DNA of 40,186 nt from a virus. Below the pieces are notes generated by a model that saw nothing but the letters and a program-made list of their open reading frames with translations, had not been told where the DNA came from and did no database searches. The stretch is taken from IMG/VR virus record IMGVR_UViG_3300035185_000006, positions 1 through 40,186 of that record; one strand, 5' to 3'. Both the position numbers and the translations under genes were made by a program. Every line of letters begins with the position of its first letter. The stretch's first letter is position 1. Below are positions 1,010 through 39,824 of the stretch, piece by piece.

Positions 1010-1029
1010 CCTGTAGCTACCTCGCTATT

Positions 1030-1061
1030 GCCCGCTTCCAGTGCGGGCTTTTTTCTTTTTT
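1030..1061 (+). terminator. Rho-independent terminator
   Basis: A six-pair GC-rich stem, GCCCGC (1030-1035) with GCGGGC (1043-1048), closes a 7-base loop. It is followed directly by TTTTTT, a C and six more T. It lies 20 bases after the stop of the preceding gene and ends the plus-strand transcript that enters from the left edge of the window. Confidence 0.92.
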
Positions 1062-1158
1062 GTGCATTCTGAGCACCGTAATCCATTCTAAGAGCATTTC
1101 TCACACCCACCTGAGCTACCCTACACGCCGCATTACCACTGCGTTCTGGAGCTTTACA

Positions 1159-1174
1159 GGCCCATTCCTGGGCC
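1159..1174. repeat. Perfect inverted repeat GGCCCA-TTCC-TGGGCC
   Basis: A six-base perfect inverted repeat with a 4-base loop sits between the terminator at 1030 and the promoter near 1205. No T-run follows on either strand, so it is not a classical terminator. It could be an operator or an RNA hairpin. The rest of 1062..1204 shows no open reading frame with a ribosome site. Confidence 0.5.
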
Positions 1175-1204
1175 ATATATTTCAGCTAGTATTTACCAAG
1201 CAAA

Positions 1205-1250
1205 TTGATAGATAATAATTATATCTAGATAATTTGTAAATAATTATAAT
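1205..1250 (+). promoter_or_regulatory. Sigma70-type promoter(s) for the replication operon
   Basis: TTGATA at 1205-1210 is followed after exactly 17 bases by GATAAT at 1228-1233, close to both host consensus hexamers. A second perfect TATAAT lies at 1245-1250 without a good -35 box. The stretch is very AT-rich and lies just upstream of the primase gene, after a strong terminator, so a new promoter is expected here. Host sigma70 use fits the absence of a phage RNA polymerase in the window. Confidence 0.65.
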
Positions 1251-1279
1251 GTAAATGTACTCACTTAAGATTATTAAAT

Positions 1280-2089
1280 ATGAATTTGGTAGATAAAATA
1301 AAACTACTTGCTATTGATTTAGCTGATGGAGAGACACGCAGGGTTGAGTGTCCAGCCTGTGGTAGCGTTGATTCGTTCTGCGTAACTCTGGCCGGCAACG
1401 AGATAAAATATATAGATTTTTCAGCATCTTGTGGAATTAGTGGGGTGATCTCCTCGCATGGATTCCGTGGCAAACCCGCTAAGCCTAAACCCCTCCCGGA
1501 GTTACCAGGGTTATATCCACTAGATGCCGAGCAACATCAATACCTGACGAAGAAGTTCAATGTAGCGCTGCCCTACTTGTGGCACATCCGTTATAGCCAT
1601 GCTGACGGGCGCGTGTATATCCCTCTTTATGATGGTGCCGGCGGTATTGCAGCGTACATAGCGCGCTACTACGTGGATCTTGCTAACGGCCCACAGATAG
1701 GAAGCAAAGCCTTATTTAAACCAGTCACAAGCACATGCGAGCAGCTGCTGTGGTCCATGCCTGAGGTGATGCTATCAGCTAGAGAATGTAAACGTGTGCT
1801 GCTGGTAGAGGATCCTATGTCAGCACTACGCGTATGGGCACAATGTGGTGTGCCAGTAGCGCCTTTATTAGGCACATTCATGAAAGAATATCAGCTAAAT
1901 ACTATATTAGAGATGGGTATAAACAAAGTATACGTAGCGCTAGATTCTGATGCTACAATAAAAGCAGTAGATATGAAGAGGAGGATAAACGTATTAGTCG
2001 ATACTTCAGTAATACCACTGACAGGGAAAGACATAAAAGACCTAAGTATTGAAGCACTAGATAATCTATTAATTGAGTACAACTTATAG
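1280..2089 (+). CDS. DNA primase with zinc-finger and TOPRIM domains
   Basis: A 269-residue protein that would lay down RNA primers at the fork. Residues 20-55 form a T7 gp4-like zinc-binding domain: C24-x2-C27 and C51 are present, but the position where relatives usually have a third Cys reads Asp46; Cys34 is an additional Cys nearby. The TOPRIM core follows, with VLLVEDPMSALRVW (Glu177, Asp178) and VYVALDSDATIKAVDM (Asp222-x-Asp224), the metal-binding acids of the fold. T7 joins primase and helicase in one protein. Here the helicase is a separate gene two genes downstream. No clear ribosome site precedes the ATG, so the exact start is less certain than the identity. Confidence 0.9.
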   Translation: MNLVDKIKLLAIDLADGETRRVECPACGSVDSFCVTLAGNEIKYIDFSASCGISGVISSHGFRGKPAKPKPLPELPGLYPLDAEQHQYLTKKFNVALPYLWHIRYSHADGRVYIPLYDGAGGIAAYIARYYVDLANGPQIGSKALFKPVTSTCEQLLWSMPEVMLSARECKRVLLVEDPMSALRVWAQCGVPVAPLLGTFMKEYQLNTILEMGINKVYVALDSDATIKAVDMKRRINVLVDTSVIPLTGKDIKDLSIEALDNLLIEYNL

Positions 2090-2320: not shown

Positions 2321-3535
2321 ATGGAAATAAGAATCTTAGCAGCCATGATAAAGAACAGGAATGCATATGATTCTGTTTCCATGTACCACACAGAGAATGA
2401 TTTCAGTTCCATTGGCAATATCATTTACAAGGAAATAGCCAATTATTATGGGGCAGATGCCAATGCAGCTGAGGTAGACACCACTGTACTCATGGCTAGA
2501 TTATCCAGGAAGTACACTAAGCATGCTGATAGCTTTAAGAAGATATTAGAAAGCCTACCAAATATCTCACATGAGAATATATTGAGTGACTATCGCTCAA
2601 TGAAGCTGGATTCGTATGGTGAGATTATTGGTGGGTTTCTGCTGGCTGGAAAGCACGACAAGGCCAGGGAAATTATGGATATGTACAACTCACTGTACAT
2701 ATCAGGGTTGGGTAATGATGCAGCTACGAACAGCTACGAGATTATTAAGGACGCTAAGACAGAAGACTTTAACGATATGTTTAAGTCCGGCAACCGTTTA
2801 GCGCTAGCGCCAAAAGAAATCAATGATTTGCTAAATGGTGGGCTGCTACCAGGTAGTCATGCCGTGATATATGGCCCGCCTGAGAGCTGTAAAACTGCCC
2901 TAGCGATAACATTCACGTTTGCCTTGTGTTTCCGGGGTAAGAAGGTGCTGTATGTTGGCAATGAAGAAGCCAAATCAATGTATTTACTCAGACTTAAGTG
3001 CCGCTTCTGCTGCTTAACTGAGGAGGAAATTATGGCTGACCCCAAGACAGCAGATGAATTGGCCGACTCTCGTGGATGGGGTAACTTAGTGTTCATGTAT
3101 GCTAGCCATGGGTCGATGGAAGATGTGCATAAAGAGGCGCTGGCGCATGAAGTTGATGTAGTTGTTGTAGATCAACTGCATAATCTGAGAATAAACACAG
3201 TAGGGAGGAAGATAGAGGGAACCGTACTGCTAACTGAGTTAGCCTATCGGCAGCGCGCTTTCCTGAGCAAGCACGATATAGCTGGTATCTCTGTGACACA
3301 GGCAGGAGACTCTTCTATAGGTAAATTATTCTTATCAATCAAGGACATATATAATTCTAATATCGGTGTACAGGGGACAGCGGATCTCATGCTAGGGATT
3401 GGTTATAACGACGAGTACGCCGCTAGGAACAGGAGGGTATTAAACATTACCAAGAACAAAATTGCTGGGAAGCATGGGTATGTAGTTGTACAACTAGATG
3501 CTCCTAAAAGTGTAGTTAAATCAGTAAGGAAATGA
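2321..3535 (+). CDS. Replicative DNA helicase, RecA/DnaB-type
   Basis: A 404-residue ATPase of the DnaB/T7 gp4 helicase class that would unwind DNA at the replication fork. Residues 1-130 are a helical N-terminal domain. The RecA core starts near residue 165 with LLNGGLLPGSHAVIYGPPES, and a Walker A reading G185-PPES-C-K191-T192. Relatives have Gly where this protein has Cys190. Walker B is VDVVVVDQLHN (Asp284). A KKVLYVGNEE strand with the usual catalytic Glu follows Walker A, and a DIAGISVTQAG motif resembles the Q-containing H3 motif. GGAG lies 11 bases before the ATG. It is separate from, not fused to, the primase. Confidence 0.9.
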   Translation: MEIRILAAMIKNRNAYDSVSMYHTENDFSSIGNIIYKEIANYYGADANAAEVDTTVLMARLSRKYTKHADSFKKILESLPNISHENILSDYRSMKLDSYGEIIGGFLLAGKHDKAREIMDMYNSLYISGLGNDAATNSYEIIKDAKTEDFNDMFKSGNRLALAPKEINDLLNGGLLPGSHAVIYGPPESCKTALAITFTFALCFRGKKVLYVGNEEAKSMYLLRLKCRFCCLTEEEIMADPKTADELADSRGWGNLVFMYASHGSMEDVHKEALAHEVDVVVVDQLHNLRINTVGRKIEGTVLLTELAYRQRAFLSKHDIAGISVTQAGDSSIGKLFLSIKDIYNSNIGVQGTADLMLGIGYNDEYAARNRRVLNITKNKIAGKHGYVVVQLDAPKSVVKSVRK

Positions 3536-3768: not shown

Positions 3769-3962
3769 ATAGCACTATAATATTTAGCTTTGTTATTAAG
3801 TCATTCTTTCTTACTATCAAGTTTGGCAATTTGTATGTTTGTATGTATAAAGGCACATGGAAATATCCAATGATAAGCGTTGAATTGTTTAAAACTAATA
3901 CAATGTCTTGGGTTACTATCAGCCTCTTATTGATCAGTTTTGACATGGGGTTCACGCGATGA
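3765..3962 (+). CDS. Small hydrophobic protein overlapping polymerase start
   Basis: A 65-residue protein coupled to both neighbours through ATGA-type overlaps: its ATG overlaps the upstream stop, and its TGA overlaps the polymerase ATG. It has hydrophobic stretches at residues 3-17 and about 48-60, which may be weak membrane segments, with a Tyr/Lys-rich middle. The double overlap is the main evidence that it is translated. It could also serve only to couple translation into the polymerase gene. No family is recognised. Confidence 0.55.
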   Translation: MNSTIIFSFVIKSFFLTIKFGNLYVCMYKGTWKYPMISVELFKTNTMSWVTISLLLISFDMGFTR

Positions 3963-5935
3963 TACCAGAGCATATTAAGAACCTACTCCCGGACAAGCTA
4001 CTACATCCAAATCCGTACATATATCTAACTGACAACTTTGTAGTATTTGATCTGGAGACAACTAGCAAGGGGGATGACCACTCGCCATCTCCATGTTGGG
4101 AAGAGAATAGCATAGTGTGTGGTAGCTGGTGCTGTGGCATGATGGGGGCTACACGCAATATCTACGGCAATGAATATGAGATGCAAGAGCTAGTGGATGC
4201 ATTGGAGTCTGCGGACTTCTGTGTGGCTCACAATGGTAAGTTCGATTTAGGGTGGCTACTTCGGGCCGGCATAGATCTTAGCAAGATCTTACTATACGAC
4301 ACTATGATAGGTGAGTATGTGGCCTTAGGTAACAGATTGGGGAAGACTACCAAAGACTCCAGAGGTAAAGCTAGGAAGCCGCTATCACTGGACAATTTAC
4401 TAACCATAAAGTTCTGGGAAAGTAAGGATCCATTCGTGGATATCTGCATCAAAGGTAAAGTTGACGTATCCGAACTGCCCAAGTCTATGGTAATAAAGCG
4501 TTGCAATAGTGACGTTAGGATGACACGCAAGCTATTCCTATTGCAAAGTCGACAGTTGTATTCAGCTGGCCTGTTGCCCTGCATGTATACTAGCTGCCTG
4601 CTAACGCCAATCCTGGCAGACATTGAGAGCAAGGGTATGTGCGTGGATGCTGATGCAGTAGATAAGCAATACACAGAGGCAGTTGCCAGCCTAGTTGCAG
4701 TAACCGCTGAAATGGATGAATTCACCGGCGGGGTTAACCCACGCTCACCTAAGCAGATGAAGGAGTTTATCTACGAGACCCTGAAATTTAAGCCACCGAT
4801 ATCCGGCTATGGAAAAAATCAGGTGCCTGATTATACGACAGAGACAGATAAGATAACCCAGCTAAAAGCTACAACTAGCAAGCAGAAGAAATTCATCGAA
4901 TTGAAGAAGCGCTACGCCAGACACCATGCTGACGTTAGTAAAGCTCTGCAATTTTACCAGGGGGTTGCAACCGATGACAGATTTGATGCACCGATATTCT
5001 ACGCCAAGCTAAACCAATGCAATACAAAAACACATCGTCTAAGTTCATCTGGAATAAAAAGAGTATTCACTAAATTAAAAGATGCTGGTGGCAAAGCAAT
5101 CCAGAAAGGAATTCAATTTCAGAATATGCCTAGGAAATATAAGCCATTGATTAGAGCTAGGCTAGACGATTGGCTCATAACTGAGATAGATGCTTCACAA
5201 TTGGAGTTCAGAGTGGCAGCACACCTGGGTAGTTGCCCCGTTGCTACGCAAGAGATAATAGATGGTGTTGACGTGCATAAACAATCAGCATCAGTAATAA
5301 ATAATTGTAAAAAAGAAGAAGTAACAAAAGCACAAAGAACATCTGCAAAATCACACACATTTAAGCCATTATATCATGGTACTAAAGGGACAGTGGATGA
5401 AGAGAGATACTATAAATGGTTTAAAGAGCATTATATAGGTATAACAAAAACCCAGCAAGAATGGATAGATGAATCATTAGCTACCAAAAAGCTAAAATTA
5501 CCTACTGGTTTCATTGCCTATTTTCCTGGGGCAAAGCTAACTAGGAGTGGCTACGTTACTGACAGCACTAAGATATGTAATCTACCTGTGCAGAATCTTG
5601 CTACAGCAGAGATCATACCAATAGCCATAATATTTCTATGGCATCTTATGTTAGATATGGAATCATATCTCATAAATACTGTTCATGATTCAGGTATTAT
5701 AGAGACCCACCCAGATGAAATAGACAGGATTAAAGAGTACGGTTTATATTCATTTACGATATTAACTTACTACTATCTTTCTGCGACGTATGGTATAGAG
5801 TTAGTAGTACCACTAGGAATAGAGATTAAAACAGGGAGGAATTGGGGCACAGGAGATGAGCATAGCATTGATACACTGCCCCCTGGTAGGTTAGAAGACG
5901 TAGACTATTCAAAACTAAACACTAACTGGAGATAA
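3959..5935 (+). CDS. DNA polymerase, family A, with 3'-5' exonuclease
   Basis: A 658-residue Pol I-type replicative polymerase, the size of T7 gp5 and without a 5'-3' exonuclease domain. Exo I is VVFDLETT (Asp31, Glu33) and Exo II is HNGKFD (Asp96). Exo III is RCNSDV (Asp184), with Arg180 where a Tyr is usual. Polymerase motif A is ITEIDASQLEFR (Asp410). Motif B runs R459-xxx-K463-xxx-F467-xxx-Y471, so the residue matching E. coli Phe762 is Phe. Motif C is TVHDSG (His575, Asp576), with Ser where many relatives have Glu. The 5'-3' nuclease is separate at 8570. The start overlaps the upstream stop. Confidence 0.97.
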   Translation: MIPEHIKNLLPDKLLHPNPYIYLTDNFVVFDLETTSKGDDHSPSPCWEENSIVCGSWCCGMMGATRNIYGNEYEMQELVDALESADFCVAHNGKFDLGWLLRAGIDLSKILLYDTMIGEYVALGNRLGKTTKDSRGKARKPLSLDNLLTIKFWESKDPFVDICIKGKVDVSELPKSMVIKRCNSDVRMTRKLFLLQSRQLYSAGLLPCMYTSCLLTPILADIESKGMCVDADAVDKQYTEAVASLVAVTAEMDEFTGGVNPRSPKQMKEFIYETLKFKPPISGYGKNQVPDYTTETDKITQLKATTSKQKKFIELKKRYARHHADVSKALQFYQGVATDDRFDAPIFYAKLNQCNTKTHRLSSSGIKRVFTKLKDAGGKAIQKGIQFQNMPRKYKPLIRARLDDWLITEIDASQLEFRVAAHLGSCPVATQEIIDGVDVHKQSASVINNCKKEEVTKAQRTSAKSHTFKPLYHGTKGTVDEERYYKWFKEHYIGITKTQQEWIDESLATKKLKLPTGFIAYFPGAKLTRSGYVTDSTKICNLPVQNLATAEIIPIAIIFLWHLMLDMESYLINTVHDSGIIETHPDEIDRIKEYGLYSFTILTYYYLSATYGIELVVPLGIEIKTGRNWGTGDEHSIDTLPPGRLEDVDYSKLNTNWR

Positions 5936-32479: not shown

Positions 32480-34039
32480 TTAGTAGGCCCCACCGAAACG
32501 TCGATGTGACTTCAATACAGTATATTGATCTTCGAAATCTGAATCTCTTGGTCGCCGTGGCCGGCAAATAAAGTTGGCTGATATCCCAGAAGCTAAAGCA
32601 TCGCTAATATCATCGTGCTCTGGATTATCCAATATTATCTCTTCTTCCAATAATGTGCATTCACCGCCTTTATAATGGTAAATCTTACCTTCTTCATAGC
32701 GTGGCAATAATGCAGCATCAATCCTTTCTTCCTTGGCCCCATCCCTACCTAATGGCCTGTGCTGTTCTATCCTGACATGCAAGCCTTCGCTGAGAATTAA
32801 GTCCTTCAAGCTATTCACTATCACAACCTGAGCTGCCGTAACCTCAGCCCTAAGCTGTGTGTATTCCCATCTAACTATTGAGTTCCTCAGATATTTAAAA
32901 TACCCGGCAGTGTTATCAGTCCTGAACCTGTCAATCTGTAGAACGTAAATGTTGAATTCCCAGTCTATGCCAAATACAACTATGCATGAATAATCTGCTT
33001 TTATTCTTTTTGAAAAGGCGAAGTCCATTGATGCATAAACATTTAGCTTGCGCTCCCTATAATACCAATTACCACCCTTACGTACTATATGCTCTTTCTT
33101 GTAATAATTGAAGTTTATGCGCATTAATCTACGCTTTTCCAAGTCGTTTGGATTATTATAATACTGCGCGTAGTATTGCAATCTGTCTGTATACTTTGCT
33201 TTCTTCCTTTCAAGCTCAGCCCAATTGAAACCAAACATTGCACCATCATACGCTCGGCGCTGTCTAGGCCACAAGAACACACCATTGTCCTCTACCTGTC
33301 TTTCATGCACAGCGTATACTTTTCGTTCATCTATGTAATCACCTGTTTCCTCATCCCTGATATCTTCGTACATGTTTATCAGTGTATTGTAATGGTCGTC
33401 AGGGTGATAGCGAGTACCGACACAGCACTCTACTCCGCCGGTGCTGAGCACTGAAGCTAACTGAGAACACGAATCTTCTACTTTCTTACGGGCTGTCAAG
33501 GTGTAGGCGTTGTCTTTAACCACGACGTCATCCTTAGCCAGGAAGCCGCAGTGCCAGCCTGTTATGTTGGATTCTAGCCCGGCAATAGATACTGTTGGAT
33601 CACGTACGCCTTCACGTATCCTTGTTGGGTGGTCAACAATTATTGCCTGGGTATTCCACATCTTGCGTCGCTTCTCTTCCTTATTTATCATATCAGGACT
33701 TAACATCCTAAAAGGATTAGAAGTTAATACATTTTTTATCTCAAGTAATTGCCTTTCTGCTAGCCCCATTGTTGCAGATACATATATGATTGTTATAGCT
33801 GGATTACGATATATCTCCCAACAACATCTGATAGCTAAGCAAAAGCTTTTTCCGTGATCTCGCGGAATTAAAACTAATGTATTATTTATATTCTCTACTT
33901 CTGCCTTCTGCCAAAAATCAAAGATATCCCTATGACATTCACCATATACTCTATATGGAACAACTGTGTGTGCAAACTTCCACAAAGAATCGTAGCATTC
34001 TTCTCTGAGAGATTCTATTCTACTCTTTCTATCTTTCAT
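32480..34039 (-). CDS. terL: Terminase large subunit
   Basis: A 519-residue packaging motor. Walker A is LVLIPRDHGKSF (Lys64, Ser65), Walker B is GFLAKDDVVV (Asp170, Asp171), and a coupling motif follows near ASVLSTGG-V-ECCVGTRYHPDD. The RNase H-type nuclease domain has NVYASMDFAF (Asp337), and a last acid cluster DNPEHDDISDALA near residues 470-480. ATP-driven packaging and cutting of genome concatemers is its job. It lies one base from the small subunit gene. Confidence 0.96.
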   Translation of the reverse strand: MKDRKSRIESLREECYDSLWKFAHTVVPYRVYGECHRDIFDFWQKAEVENINNTLVLIPRDHGKSFCLAIRCCWEIYRNPAITIIYVSATMGLAERQLLEIKNVLTSNPFRMLSPDMINKEEKRRKMWNTQAIIVDHPTRIREGVRDPTVSIAGLESNITGWHCGFLAKDDVVVKDNAYTLTARKKVEDSCSQLASVLSTGGVECCVGTRYHPDDHYNTLINMYEDIRDEETGDYIDERKVYAVHERQVEDNGVFLWPRQRRAYDGAMFGFNWAELERKKAKYTDRLQYYAQYYNNPNDLEKRRLMRINFNYYKKEHIVRKGGNWYYRERKLNVYASMDFAFSKRIKADYSCIVVFGIDWEFNIYVLQIDRFRTDNTAGYFKYLRNSIVRWEYTQLRAEVTAAQVVIVNSLKDLILSEGLHVRIEQHRPLGRDGAKEERIDAALLPRYEEGKIYHYKGGECTLLEEEIILDNPEHDDISDALASGISANFICRPRRPRDSDFEDQYTVLKSHRRFGGAY

Positions 34040-35845: not shown

Positions 35846-36394
35846 CTAGTCTAAGCTATATAGGTAACTCATAGCTGCGTCATTAGCTAGGCGAGCTACC
35901 ATAAAATTGTTAGGTGTGTCTACTCTCCTACTTACATATTTGAAGTCAACATCTATACCCTTGTCATATACAAGGCTATACAAATCTATCCACAATCCTT
36001 TATTCCTGAGAGTACCGAGTCTTGTTTTCCAGCGGTTCTTACGCCATTCATGGATTTCATTGGTTATGCAAGACACGACAAAGCTATCATCGCAATACAC
36101 AATAGCTTTTAAATATCCCATTTTCCAGGCAGTATGTACAGCCCTTATGGCAGCTAAAATAGCTAGAGACCTGTCTGTTGGGTAGTAGCGTTCCTCGTAC
36201 ATATCTGGGATCCCAACCCCTGTAGCAACTTCAGCATCGAACGAAGCTATATATTTATGATCTGCATGATTAGCAGATACTGGTATTGGGGTGAGACTAA
36301 AAGCCCATGCACCAACCTTTGACTCTTTGGGAACTCTTGGATTAGCAACATGTGAGGATGTATATAATATTGCTATTTTCTTTGATATGAACAT
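35846..36394 (-). CDS. RNase H-fold protein lacking most catalytic acids (paralogue 1)
   Basis: A 182-residue protein with RNase HI-like order: KKIAILYTSSHV strand, LAILAAIRAVHTAWKMGY helix, LKAIVYCDDSFVV strand, EIHEWRKNRWKTR helix, LWIDLYSLV and a strand and end VDFKYVSRRV-x-x-PNNFMVARLAN. In active enzymes the first strand has Asp (TDGS), the helix has Glu and the last motif has Asp. Here these read Thr/Ser, Ala and Ala. Only the Asp in the third strand is kept. Hence probably a binder, not a nuclease. An alternative GTG start at 36418 exists. A paralogue lies at 37676. Confidence 0.6.
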   Translation of the reverse strand: MFISKKIAILYTSSHVANPRVPKESKVGAWAFSLTPIPVSANHADHKYIASFDAEVATGVGIPDMYEERYYPTDRSLAILAAIRAVHTAWKMGYLKAIVYCDDSFVVSCITNEIHEWRKNRWKTRLGTLRNKGLWIDLYSLVYDKGIDVDFKYVSRRVDTPNNFMVARLANDAAMSYLYSLD

Positions 36395-36445
36395 TAGATG
36401 ATATTCAGTGGGGAGCACAATTTAATAGTAGCATACTGAATAAAG

Positions 36446-37224: not shown

Positions 37225-37689
37225 TCAATTGGTCATCCTATGTTTCAGATACTCTAATGAAACACCAAAGAAATCAGCCATCTTATAATGGCTCCAGCCA
37301 CGTTTTTGCAAATCTTCAACCATTTCATTTGGCATCAGCAGATGTGCGGCGAACTGGTTTGCAAAAACATCCTCATGATCTGATTTACCACGAAAATCTA
37401 CATACCCATACTCGCTGGTAGACTCACCAGAGTTAACGCGAGAAATATAATTACCAAGCTCTCGAGCGCAGGAAAAGCGCTTTCTGCTGGGGTGGTCATC
37501 CCTATCAATAGTAATCATAGGATCATGGCCTGCTTCCTTAAGCAAAGCGCCAGATACATTACCAGGTAATTCTGTTTCAAACACCTCCAACCCAAGCCGC
37601 CTAGCAATGACCACAGGGCTTACTGGAAAAGTACGCCAAGCCCAGAAGTGCTCTAACAACTTGGTAGCTTCTGTTTTAGGATCTAACAT
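37225..37689 (-). CDS. ImmA/IrrE-like protein with missing zinc ligands
   Basis: A 154-residue protein with the ImmA/IrrE plan: helices LLEHFWAWRTFPVSPVVIARRLGLEV, a strand GALLKEAGHDPMITIDR, the helix RFSCARELGNYI, then VFANQFAAHLLMP and a C-terminal helical part (YKMADFFGVSLEYLKHRM). The family is a zinc metalloprotease, HExxH, with a third ligand just before the AN-x-FAA motif. Here HExxH reads R76-E-L-G-N80 and the position before A110-N111 is Phe109. Glu77 is kept. It should not cut proteins in the usual way; it may bind a repressor-type target or act as a decoy. It overlaps the RNase H-like gene by 14 bases. Confidence 0.75.
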   Translation of the reverse strand: MLDPKTEATKLLEHFWAWRTFPVSPVVIARRLGLEVFETELPGNVSGALLKEAGHDPMITIDRDDHPSRKRFSCARELGNYISRVNSGESTSEYGYVDFRGKSDHEDVFANQFAAHLLMPNEMVEDLQKRGWSHYKMADFFGVSLEYLKHRMTN

Positions 37690-38323
37690 AGACGCTATAT
37701 TTCTCCTTATCTGGGTACATAAAATCTAACCAACCAAGATTATGGTTAGTGCCATCATCGCTAATAATTATATCATTATATGTTATCCCATTTAGATGTG
37801 CCCAATCCTGGGAATAACTTCTGGATTTGATATGAGCAACTATACTAGCCTTTAAATCTTTTAGTAATAGTGAATGTTCATAAAAATCATTGCCAGGGAA
37901 GGTAGCTGCTGGGTATACAAAGTAGAATTTTACATTTATTCCTAGATTAAACAAATGCCTATATAAAGACCTCCACATGTCTACGCATCGCGGAGGGGAT
38001 CCTTTTGTTGTTTTCCATCCTAGTGATTTCCAATTACTTATATACCTAGTAACTACGTTGTAAAAATATTCATCATCTAAATAAACTACTACTTCTTTCT
38101 GGTCTTGTACTGGATAAGTTTGGAACGCACATAACAAAGCTCTACCTAGAAACAATCCTGAACATATGTCCTTTTTGCTGCATTTAGGTAACGTGTGCTT
38201 ATCTAGTATTATGCCTTTGTCATATTCTTTGTAGAATAATCTGTAAGCAGACGCATATGTACGTATACCTTCTCTAGTTTCATTGAAGTATGAATATATG
38301 TATAACGTAGGAGATGTATGCAT
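37676..38323 (-). CDS. RNase H-fold protein lacking most catalytic acids (paralogue 2)
   Basis: A 215-residue protein. GAGAGG lies about 7 bases before the ATG. Order of parts resembles paralogue 1 at 35846: LYIYSYFN strand, a helix with GLFLGRALLCAFQTY, EVVVYLDDEYFYNVV strand, ISNWKSLGWKTT, VDMWRSLYRHLFNLGINVKFYFVYPAATFPGNDFYEHS. First Asp of RNase H is Ser/Tyr, the helix Glu is absent, and only the Asp in the LDD segment remains. The GWKT and DMW-x-L-Y-x-H segments are shared with RNase HI. It is the first gene of the leftward transcript and probably expressed early. A non-catalytic binding role is likely. Confidence 0.55.
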   Translation of the reverse strand: MHTSPTLYIYSYFNETREGIRTYASAYRLFYKEYDKGIILDKHTLPKCSKKDICSGLFLGRALLCAFQTYPVQDQKEVVVYLDDEYFYNVVTRYISNWKSLGWKTTKGSPPRCVDMWRSLYRHLFNLGINVKFYFVYPAATFPGNDFYEHSLLLKDLKASIVAHIKSRSYSQDWAHLNGITYNDIIISDDGTNHNLGWLDFMYPDKEKYSVYVRS

Positions 38324-38342
38324 AATAGCCTCTCTGTTGGCT

Positions 38343-38406
38343 CTCTGACTTGGGGATGGGCAAGATAGTCAGAGTTCTATCCTTTCGGATGGTGGTAGCT
38401 AACCAC
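38343..38406 (-). other. Hairpin cluster in the leader of the leftward transcript
   Basis: Three neighbouring inverted repeats: CTCTGACT/AGTCAGAG (38343-38350 with 38367-38374), ATCC/GGAT (38379-38382 with 38387-38390, loop TTTC) and GTGGT/ACCAC (38392-38396 with 38402-38406). They lie 20-83 bases upstream of the first minus-strand gene, so the leader RNA would be folded. Regulation by protein or by folding is possible. I did not find a convincing minus-strand promoter further right (38407..38520). Confidence 0.5.
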
Positions 38407-38519
38407 TTCCTAGCCCTATCCATAGCATACGTCTAAATGGCTGAGTTTGCTATGTAAAAAAAATATTTGACAATTGTTGTTTGTAAGTGTTTGAATAATT
38501 CGCTATTTATTTTAGGACA

Positions 38520-38548
38520 TTGCTTAAGTGTTTGATTCTTATTATATT
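38520..38548 (+). promoter_or_regulatory. Sigma70-type promoter, rightward (upstream of two)
   Basis: TTGCTT (38520-38525), 17 bases, TATATT (38543-38548). Good match to both host boxes, directed into the structured AT-rich region and then toward the genes at 39171-40149. Confidence 0.6.
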
Positions 38549-38575
38549 TGTGTATTTCTTGTATTGTACTATACT
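38548..38575 (+). promoter_or_regulatory. Sigma70-type promoter, rightward (downstream of two)
   Basis: TTGTGT (38548-38553), 16 bases, TATACT (38570-38575). The -35 box overlaps the -10 box of the upstream promoter, so the two are tandem. Transcripts would begin at about 38582, within the first hairpin of the putative untranslated RNA. Confidence 0.6.
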
Positions 38576-38643
38576 GCCTCTAGGCAAGGAGCACAGTATC
38601 TGTGCGGCAAGGAACTGAAGAATACTGAAGTATGTAAAATAAT

Positions 38644-38682
38644 AAATACAAATAAGAAATACGAATAACAAATACAAATAAA
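38644..38682. repeat. Three 13-bp direct repeats (iteron-like), candidate origin
   Basis: AAATACAAATAAG (38644-38656), AAATACGAATAAC (38657-38669) and AAATACAAATAAA (38670-38682) follow one another with an exact 13-base period. The units differ only at position 7 in one copy and at the last base. They lie immediately before the most AT-rich tract of the window. Tandem 13-mers next to AT-rich DNA recall the melting region of bacterial origins. No initiator gene is recognised, so the role is inferred. Confidence 0.7.
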
Positions 38683-38703
38683 ATTATAATTAGTAGAGTA
38701 TGT

Positions 38704-38815
38704 TATATTTTTTTTTTATTTTTTATTTTAATCTTTTTTTTTATTAATTCATGTTGTTTATATTTATCTATGTTAATATTTATTGTTACTAATTAATTCT
38801 ATTTGCTACGAGCTA
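38704..38815. other. Extremely AT-rich tract with T-runs
   Basis: The tract is almost all A and T, with runs of T on the plus strand and no coding frame. It lies just right of the 13-bp direct repeats and would melt readily. It may be the unwinding site of an origin, or a bent DNA segment. The remaining stretch 38972..39170 is also noncoding and AT-rich. It holds a 12-bp perfect palindrome TACATGCATGTA (39019-39030) and, just before 39171, a TAAGGGA ribosome site. Confidence 0.6.
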
Positions 38816-39170
38816 TTTATATAAATTTGAAGCTTGTACATGCGAGTAGTAGTGCACTGCACTGTGCTGAGAAATCAGCACCCCCCTAGCCCCTTCAACC
38901 TCCTAGTTGAGGAAACATTGCCTTAATGTCAACCAGCTACGCAGTGTGTGTGCAACACACTCTTTAGTTTTACATAATGTCATTTATGCTTACGTTTTGT
39001 ACAATATCAATGCATTCATACATGCATGTACATATAGCTTGCATATCTTGATTTATGTGTAATACTGTAAATATGGAAAGATATGTGAGTATTTTAAGGG
39101 TTTAAATCCAAACACTACTCCCCACTATTTTATTGAAATATCTTTTATCATCTAATGTAAGGGATATACA

Positions 39171-39248
39171 ATGAACACTAATGATATAGCATTATTAATT
39201 ATCTCAGCATTTGGAATAGTAGGTACATTACCAATTATATTAGTATGA
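39171..39248 (+). CDS. Very short hydrophobic peptide
   Basis: A 25-residue reading frame, MNTNDIALLIISAFGIVGTL then PIILV, a single hydrophobic helix. TAAGGGA lies 7 bases before the ATG, a convincing ribosome site, and its stop overlaps another ATG (ATGA at 39245). It is either a genuine micro-protein inserted in the membrane or a remnant of a longer membrane protein. Confidence 0.45.
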   Translation: MNTNDIALLIISAFGIVGTLPIILV

Positions 39249-39367
39249 ATGAATTCATAGACATTCAATTTACCCTAAATTGAATTGGTTTATTCAGAGC
39301 ATTGCCATTAATATTGTTCATATCTGCAATAGGGTGGACAGTAACATCAATATTAAATTTATATTAA
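39245..39367 (+). pseudogene. Membrane-protein frame interrupted by TGA
   Basis: From the ATG at 39245 the frame codes MNEFIDIQFTLN, meets TGA at 39281, then continues open as IGLFRALPLILFISAIGWTV and TSILNLY to TAA at 39365. The continuation is one clear membrane span, so a nonsense change in a roughly 40-residue protein is likely. TGA serves as a normal stop for other genes here, so recoding is not favoured. Confidence 0.35.
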
Positions 39368-39392
39368 AATCTAAAAAACAATGGAGCATATC

Positions 39393-39824
39393 ATGTATAA
39401 ACTAATAGCAATATCATTGTTAGCAATGTCATTGAATGCTAACGCATACACAAAAGAAGAAGCTAAATCAGAAGCAACGAAGACAGTAACATTCTTATTA
39501 GTCCTGGACAGATGCCACGCTAGTGGCTTCATATCGCAAGAGAAGAAACTATCATTGCAATTGTTTGAGTATTTGATGTACGGCTACACATACGGTGAGG
39601 CTAATCTCGGACAAGTGATGCGAATCTACAGCCAAGTTCTACCAAAGGTATTCCATAATATGGAATCCATACCTGATACATCAGAAGCCTATTACGATTG
39701 CAAAGAAGTGCAGCATACGCTAGAAGATGTTGATGCATCATGGCTGAGAGTACACGGTGATGAACCATTACCAACATGGCTGCGTAGTATAGCAAATGCT
39801 ATTCTTAACATGAGGGAATTCTAA
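39393..39824 (+). CDS. Exported small protein with cleavable signal peptide
   Basis: A 143-residue protein. GGAG lies 8 bases before this ATG; a Met four codons upstream overlaps that site and is not preferred. MYKLIAISLLAMSLNANA-Y is a textbook signal peptide with an Ala-x-Ala cleavage site. The mature part is helical with Cys in LDRCHASGF and YYDCKEVQHTL, a possible disulfide in the periplasm. Candidate roles are superinfection exclusion or lysis control. No lysozyme or spanin motif is seen. It forms a group with two small membrane proteins downstream. Confidence 0.75.
   Translation: MYKLIAISLLAMSLNANAYTKEEAKSEATKTVTFLLVLDRCHASGFISQEKKLSLQLFEYLMYGYTYGEANLGQVMRIYSQVLPKVFHNMESIPDTSEAYYDCKEVQHTLEDVDASWLRVHGDEPLPTWLRSIANAILNMREF

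Follow-up and report, generated by a model that had tools for sequence, protein, structure and literature searches.

What is the role of a short ladder of 13-bp direct repeats that stands beside an extreme A/T tract, in the space from which the two gene arms of a phage diverge? The stretch of DNA analysed here (the window) is one complete virus record of 40186 bases. A first-pass annotation of this locus, made from the letters alone, proposed a replication origin, either promoter-primed or bound by an initiator. In this group of aquatic phages, our analysis shifts the likely function from a 'new origin' to a 'genome end': genome-end machinery is more likely here than a replication origin of a new kind, both roles being putative.

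On the evidence of its proteins and layout, we assign the record to a Zobellviridae-like podovirus, with VpV262, SIO1 and the Lentibacter phage ICBM1 among its relatives. Its polymerase, terminase, tail and internal virion proteins are related to those of this family, its genes form two outward-facing arms, as they do in VpV262, and no RNA polymerase was found. Protein matches (polymerase, terminase and tail proteins) include VpV262, the Vibrio phages 1.015.O, 1.209.O and 1.070.O, and the cobaviruses. The closest kin in IMG/VR share 61-67% identity in the terminase and 53-56% in the polymerase, and hence the 'near relatives' used for comparison are not very near.

Two observations on the genes stand apart from the question of the locus. 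The leftward arm carries two separate RNase H-like genes (35846-36418 and 37676-38323), one of which borders the divergent gap; the second has a Pfam match that falls under the curated cut-off, and single-sequence searches returned no relatives for either the RNase H-like gene or the helicase. In one related locus (L040, 9965-12349), the DNA polymerase ORF is 794 aa long, compared to 658 aa here, and its best-matching segment stops at residue 544, so that an inserted element such as an intein is possible.

Coordinates of the features discussed here, with the strand where one applies
Feature	Position	Strand	Details
Divergent noncoding gap, 850 bp	38324-39173		Leftward structural arm on one side, rightward replication arm on the other (ORF map)
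TTGACA and two exact copies of TAAGTGTTTGA, 41 bp apart	38467-38535	+	Possible promoter/operator; TTGACA at 38467
Tandem array, unit AAATACNAATAAN	38637-38681	+	Period 13, 3.5 copies, TRF score 69
AT-rich, easily melted block	38640-38830		T-runs at 38708-38717 and 38734-38742 (A+T and stability scans)
Hairpin-rich stretch	38830-38975	+	Fold z -2.5; terminator-like hairpin at its end, 38943-38961 (terminator scan)
C-rich stretch	38876-38906	+	CCCCCC at 38881; tentative 5' part of direct terminal repeat (DTR)
Second AT-rich gap	1010-1279		Immediately precedes primase gene; AT-rich stretch after a terminator-like hairpin
DNA primase-like gene	1280-2089	+	phrog_47
DnaB-like replicative helicase	2321-3535	+	phrog_19
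Family A DNA polymerase	3959-5935	+	42-45% identity to Zobellviridae phages over 98%
Terminase large subunit	32480-34039	-	43-49% identity to Zobellviridae phages

The locus had been placed between divergent transcripts, and the ORF map bears this out, with the gap at 38324-39173 separating the leftward and rightward gene arms. If the record is taken as circular, the rightward arm runs past the record's end into the primase, helicase and polymerase genes. This gap is indeed the largest, but to call it the only large noncoding region was an overstatement, given the second AT-rich gap at 1010-1279, where the genome reaches its second-lowest stability. The AT-rich site at ~1200-1279, directly upstream of the primase gene, is an equally natural candidate for an origin or promoter. 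In three related loci (L032, L035 and L087), stability is likewise at or near the minimum of the locus within the 400 bp ahead of the primase gene.

The two rightward promoters reported for the gap were not recovered. Our promoter scans, which considered the sigma-70 consensus only, gave no plus-strand site of at least 9/12 in 38324-38976 and no site of at least 10/12 on either strand in the whole gap; the TTGACA at 38467 has a poor -10 partner. The gap contains no DnaA boxes, Rfam and tRNA scans gave no matches, and DNA similarity searches of the gap against phage records yielded nothing, or one chance match at E 0.3. The divergent gap of one relative (L124, about 570-655) carries a tRNA-like sequence.

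The array of 13-mers is real, though statistically not overwhelming. Its three copies, 18 nt each, begin at 38638, 38651 and 38664, exactly 13 bp apart in both intervals, and show 89-94% identity to the reference copy. TRF likewise finds a period of 13, and the array at 38637-38681 is the top-scoring one of the whole 40186-base record; the three near-identical 13-mers in perfect register described in the first-pass annotation are thus upheld. The unit is nearly all A/T and is internally a 6+7-bp near-repeat. With Markov shuffles of the same composition in the local block, the P value of the lag-13 self-match is about 0.0005; stricter 60-bp block shuffles raise it to 0.002-0.007 when only lag 13 is considered, and to 0.044-0.053 when the strongest of all lags is taken. 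A search of IMG/VR for the exact array pattern gave 0 matches, and pairing of the A-rich array with the T-rich tract into an RNA hairpin is no better than in shuffles (z 0.5).

The extreme AT tract said to follow the 13-mers is equally evident. A+T content reaches 91% at 38699-38798, the maximum among all 100-bp segments of the record, and 96% over the 50 bp from 38703. By nearest-neighbour energies, no 100 bp of the genome is less stable than 38703-38802 (z 4.1). The genome's least stable 100 bp also falls in the divergent gap in G005 and ICBM1, where the block is about as extreme (z 4.2 and 4.0, respectively). The gap ranks second in G006, third in Vibrio phages 1.015.O and 1.209.O, fifth in VpV262 and sixth in CW02, and is not among the six least stable stretches in Vibrio phage 1.070.O. 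In most phages that have C-runs, the AT block lies to their left; in L121 and L157, it lies to their right. Conservation of the block's sequence with G005 (alignment score 39) was also considered and dropped, composition-matched shuffles giving P values of 0.025-0.05.

The gaps of G001, G005, G006, L119, L121, L124 and L174 lack the 13-mers themselves. The comparison with relatives suggested in the first-pass annotation has two sides: a melting-prone block recurs in the gap, but the 13-mers are missing from the nearest relatives available, an outcome that the annotation itself had listed as refuting its origin. Short repeats of similar period do occur elsewhere. In ICBM1 and SIO1, TTACCTA-type units are spaced at 13 bp immediately left of the DTR (lag-13 P values of 0.001 and 0.01), and in T7 CCTAAAG recurs mostly every 12-13 bp at 175-332, beside the left DTR; these spacings were all computed from the records. 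RIO-1 (L177, 122-250) has an array with an 8-bp period immediately right of its DTR (P = 0.002), and SP6 has one of 12 bp close to its left end. No lag-13 signal was seen in VpV262, the Vibrio phages, RIO-1 or the right-end flank of T7. The match in period across phages was noticed after the fact, and we treat it as a lead.

Genome ends of relatives lie in this same gap. The DTR is inside it in VpV262 (138 bp), ICBM1 (172 bp) and RIO-1 (121 bp), and was assigned to it by homology in SIO1 and P12053L. Previous work re-placed the SIO1 ends into an ORF-free inter-module region on the strength of ~80% identity to the DTRs of ICBM1 and ICBM3, and described the 5' end of the cobavirus DTR as conserved and G+C-rich (PMC6775973). 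The published cobavirus DTR similarity was reproduced here for SIO1 and P12053L. The G005 and G006 contigs each overlap their own start by 127 bp at the end, which would fit genomes that are terminally redundant or were assembled as circles; the two ends of the record overlap by only 7 bases.

When the 5' ends of known DTRs were compared with the record, 38876-38906 was the best match for P12053L and SIO1 and ranked third for ICBM1. Because shuffled C-rich queries give P values of only 0.06-0.15 for this site, marking the match as mostly composition, and because the DTR ends of RIO-1 and VpV262 do not pick it, the exact position of the genome end is tentative. With a DTR starting near 38.87 kb, unique DNA on the right of the mature genome would end in the array and AT block. 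Four relatives have in common a block of ~190 bp with invariant CCCCCTTGTACCCCC and CCCCCCAC (L020, 4648-4843; L040, 1340-1531; and the gaps of L121 and L174), which is a candidate for that clade's terminal repeat or terminase site. Another contig (L014) starts, at 1-17, with GTTTCCCAGTCACGATC, which resembles a primer from random amplification that stayed in the assembly, so that the left part of this contig's gap is missing.

We give about an even chance to the proposal that the array and AT block belong to a genome-terminus (concatemer-junction) control region of this Zobellviridae-like podovirus. It is favoured because the genome ends of cultured relatives occupy the same divergent gap, which is also where the array lies. 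Also in its favour are the family placement, the recurring melting-prone block, the match of cobavirus DTR 5' ends at 38876-38906 and the period-13 units beside other DTRs; against it stand the tentative nature of that match, the relatives whose gaps lack the 13-mers, the phages with no lag-13 signal, and the position of the least stable block to the right of the C-runs in L121 and L157. Ends of the T7 type are regenerated when the concatemer junction is nicked and strands are displaced there. Here, replicated concatemers would be cut in the gap and the terminal repeat duplicated there; the AT block would provide easily opened DNA for the nick and strand displacement or for entry of the phage helicase and polymerase, and the 13-mers would serve as a short-repeat array peculiar to the lineage, placed beside the terminus. 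We infer each of these biochemical steps, as we do the exact end. In the literature surveyed, no function has been demonstrated for such short-repeat arrays.

Among the alternatives, a replication origin survives best, although we consider it unlikely. An initiator would bind the 13-mers, or the 13-mers would melt as in oriC, and the AT tract would open and load helicase and primase. The array does adjoin the least stable DNA of the genome, and primase, helicase and polymerase are all phage-encoded in the rightward arm. The GC-skew check proposed earlier gave a compatible result, with a cumulative minimum at 38171 and a plateau from 37734 to 39695, but it is confounded by gene orientation. With transcription leading outwards on both sides of the gap, skew does not tell an origin apart from transcription bias; divergent transcription alone predicts the turn, and we rejected GC skew as proof of an origin. 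Also counting against an origin are the absence of the 13-mers in the nearest relatives and the presence of a second AT-rich site directly upstream of primase. The initiator or iteron version found no initiator-like gene among the proteins scanned, a negative that covers those proteins only (many small ORFs have no family match), and no DnaA box in the gap.

The promoter-primed, T7-type version is contradicted: PHROG and Pfam searches of the main ORFs detected no phage RNA polymerase, and the promoters that would support it were not found. A genome search with PF00940 was uninformative, as the control genomes gave no match either. Relatives have been reported to lack a phage RNA polymerase (PMC6775973, PMC9960094), and our literature search found no paper on a Zobellviridae replication origin. 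What stands of the original inference is that this is probably a replication or packaging control region of a T7-supergroup phage. The feature is real and the region is of a known kind, while the claim of an origin is unproven.

Somewhat less probable is transcription control, whereby the AT block and repeats would act as UP-element or regulator-binding DNA for host-type divergent promoters and have no replication role. The site does lie between divergent arms, the G005 and G006 gaps have a conserved rightward TTGACA-17-TATACT with LexA-like palindromes, and the cobavirus gap has a perfect leftward TTGACA-17-TATAAT. In the record, however, the gap holds no promoter of at least 10/12, the 13-bp direct repeats are not helically phased, and what G005 and G006 have are palindromes instead of tandem direct repeats. 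These LexA-box-like palindromes (CTGTATAAACGAACAG and similar; L020, 4105-4250, and L040, 925-1110) lie directly upstream of TTGACA-17-TATACT in a region that is near-identical in G005 and G006, and they are absent from the record.

A broader version of the terminus proposal is, in our estimation, a long shot: that T7, the cobaviruses and this phage, as members of the T7 supergroup, share a cis-element in the form of a ladder of short direct repeats with a 13-bp period, set next to the terminal repeat. Such an element would be conserved in period and position and not in sequence, and the terminase or replisome would recognise it so as to place or process the ends. The proposal offers a testable parallel, as short-repeat ladders of the same period flank one T7 terminal repeat and those of sequence-unrelated cobaviruses. 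Least probable of all is neutral slippage, a 13-bp duplication in a low-complexity AT-rich spacer with no selected function; it accords with the mere 3.5 copies, the 6+7-bp near-repeat within the unit and an array conserved in no relative found (0 pattern matches in IMG/VR), but not with the recurrence of the AT-rich block in relatives' gaps or of period-13 units beside the cobavirus and T7 DTRs.

Several known systems resemble the locus in part. The 13-mer unwinding element of E. coli oriC and the iterons of plasmids and lambda likewise place tandem AT-rich 13-mers beside AT-rich DNA; the record differs in that DnaA boxes are lacking, an initiator gene was not found and the repeats are not kept in its kin. 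The primary origin of T7, a promoter plus an AT-rich stretch, is similar in that the intergenic DNA is AT-rich and the phage encodes replication genes of its own, whereas in the record a phage RNA polymerase and supporting promoters were not found. With the short-repeat arrays beside the T7 terminal repeats, which we take to be SRL and SRR (no paper giving both names was found in the open-access literature), the array shares a 13-bp period of short direct repeats, those of T7 standing beside the left DTR. The T7 unit, CCTAAAG, is present in about 12 copies to the right of the left DTR, while the record has its 3.5 copies probably to the left of the predicted DTR; the two arrays have no sequence homology, and the record's unit is not of the CCTAAAG type. 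The termini of the Zobellviridae (VpV262, RIO-1, ICBM1 and other cobaviruses) share the divergent arms and similar gene content. They differ in that the tandem A/T-rich 13-mer is found only in the record's phage, whose DTR position is predicted. The C-rich 5' end of the cobavirus DTR has a short C-rich match in the record, with otherwise no alignable DNA, and in ICBM1 an AT-rich block adjoins the DTR, as the AT block does in the record's gap if the predicted DTR is correct.
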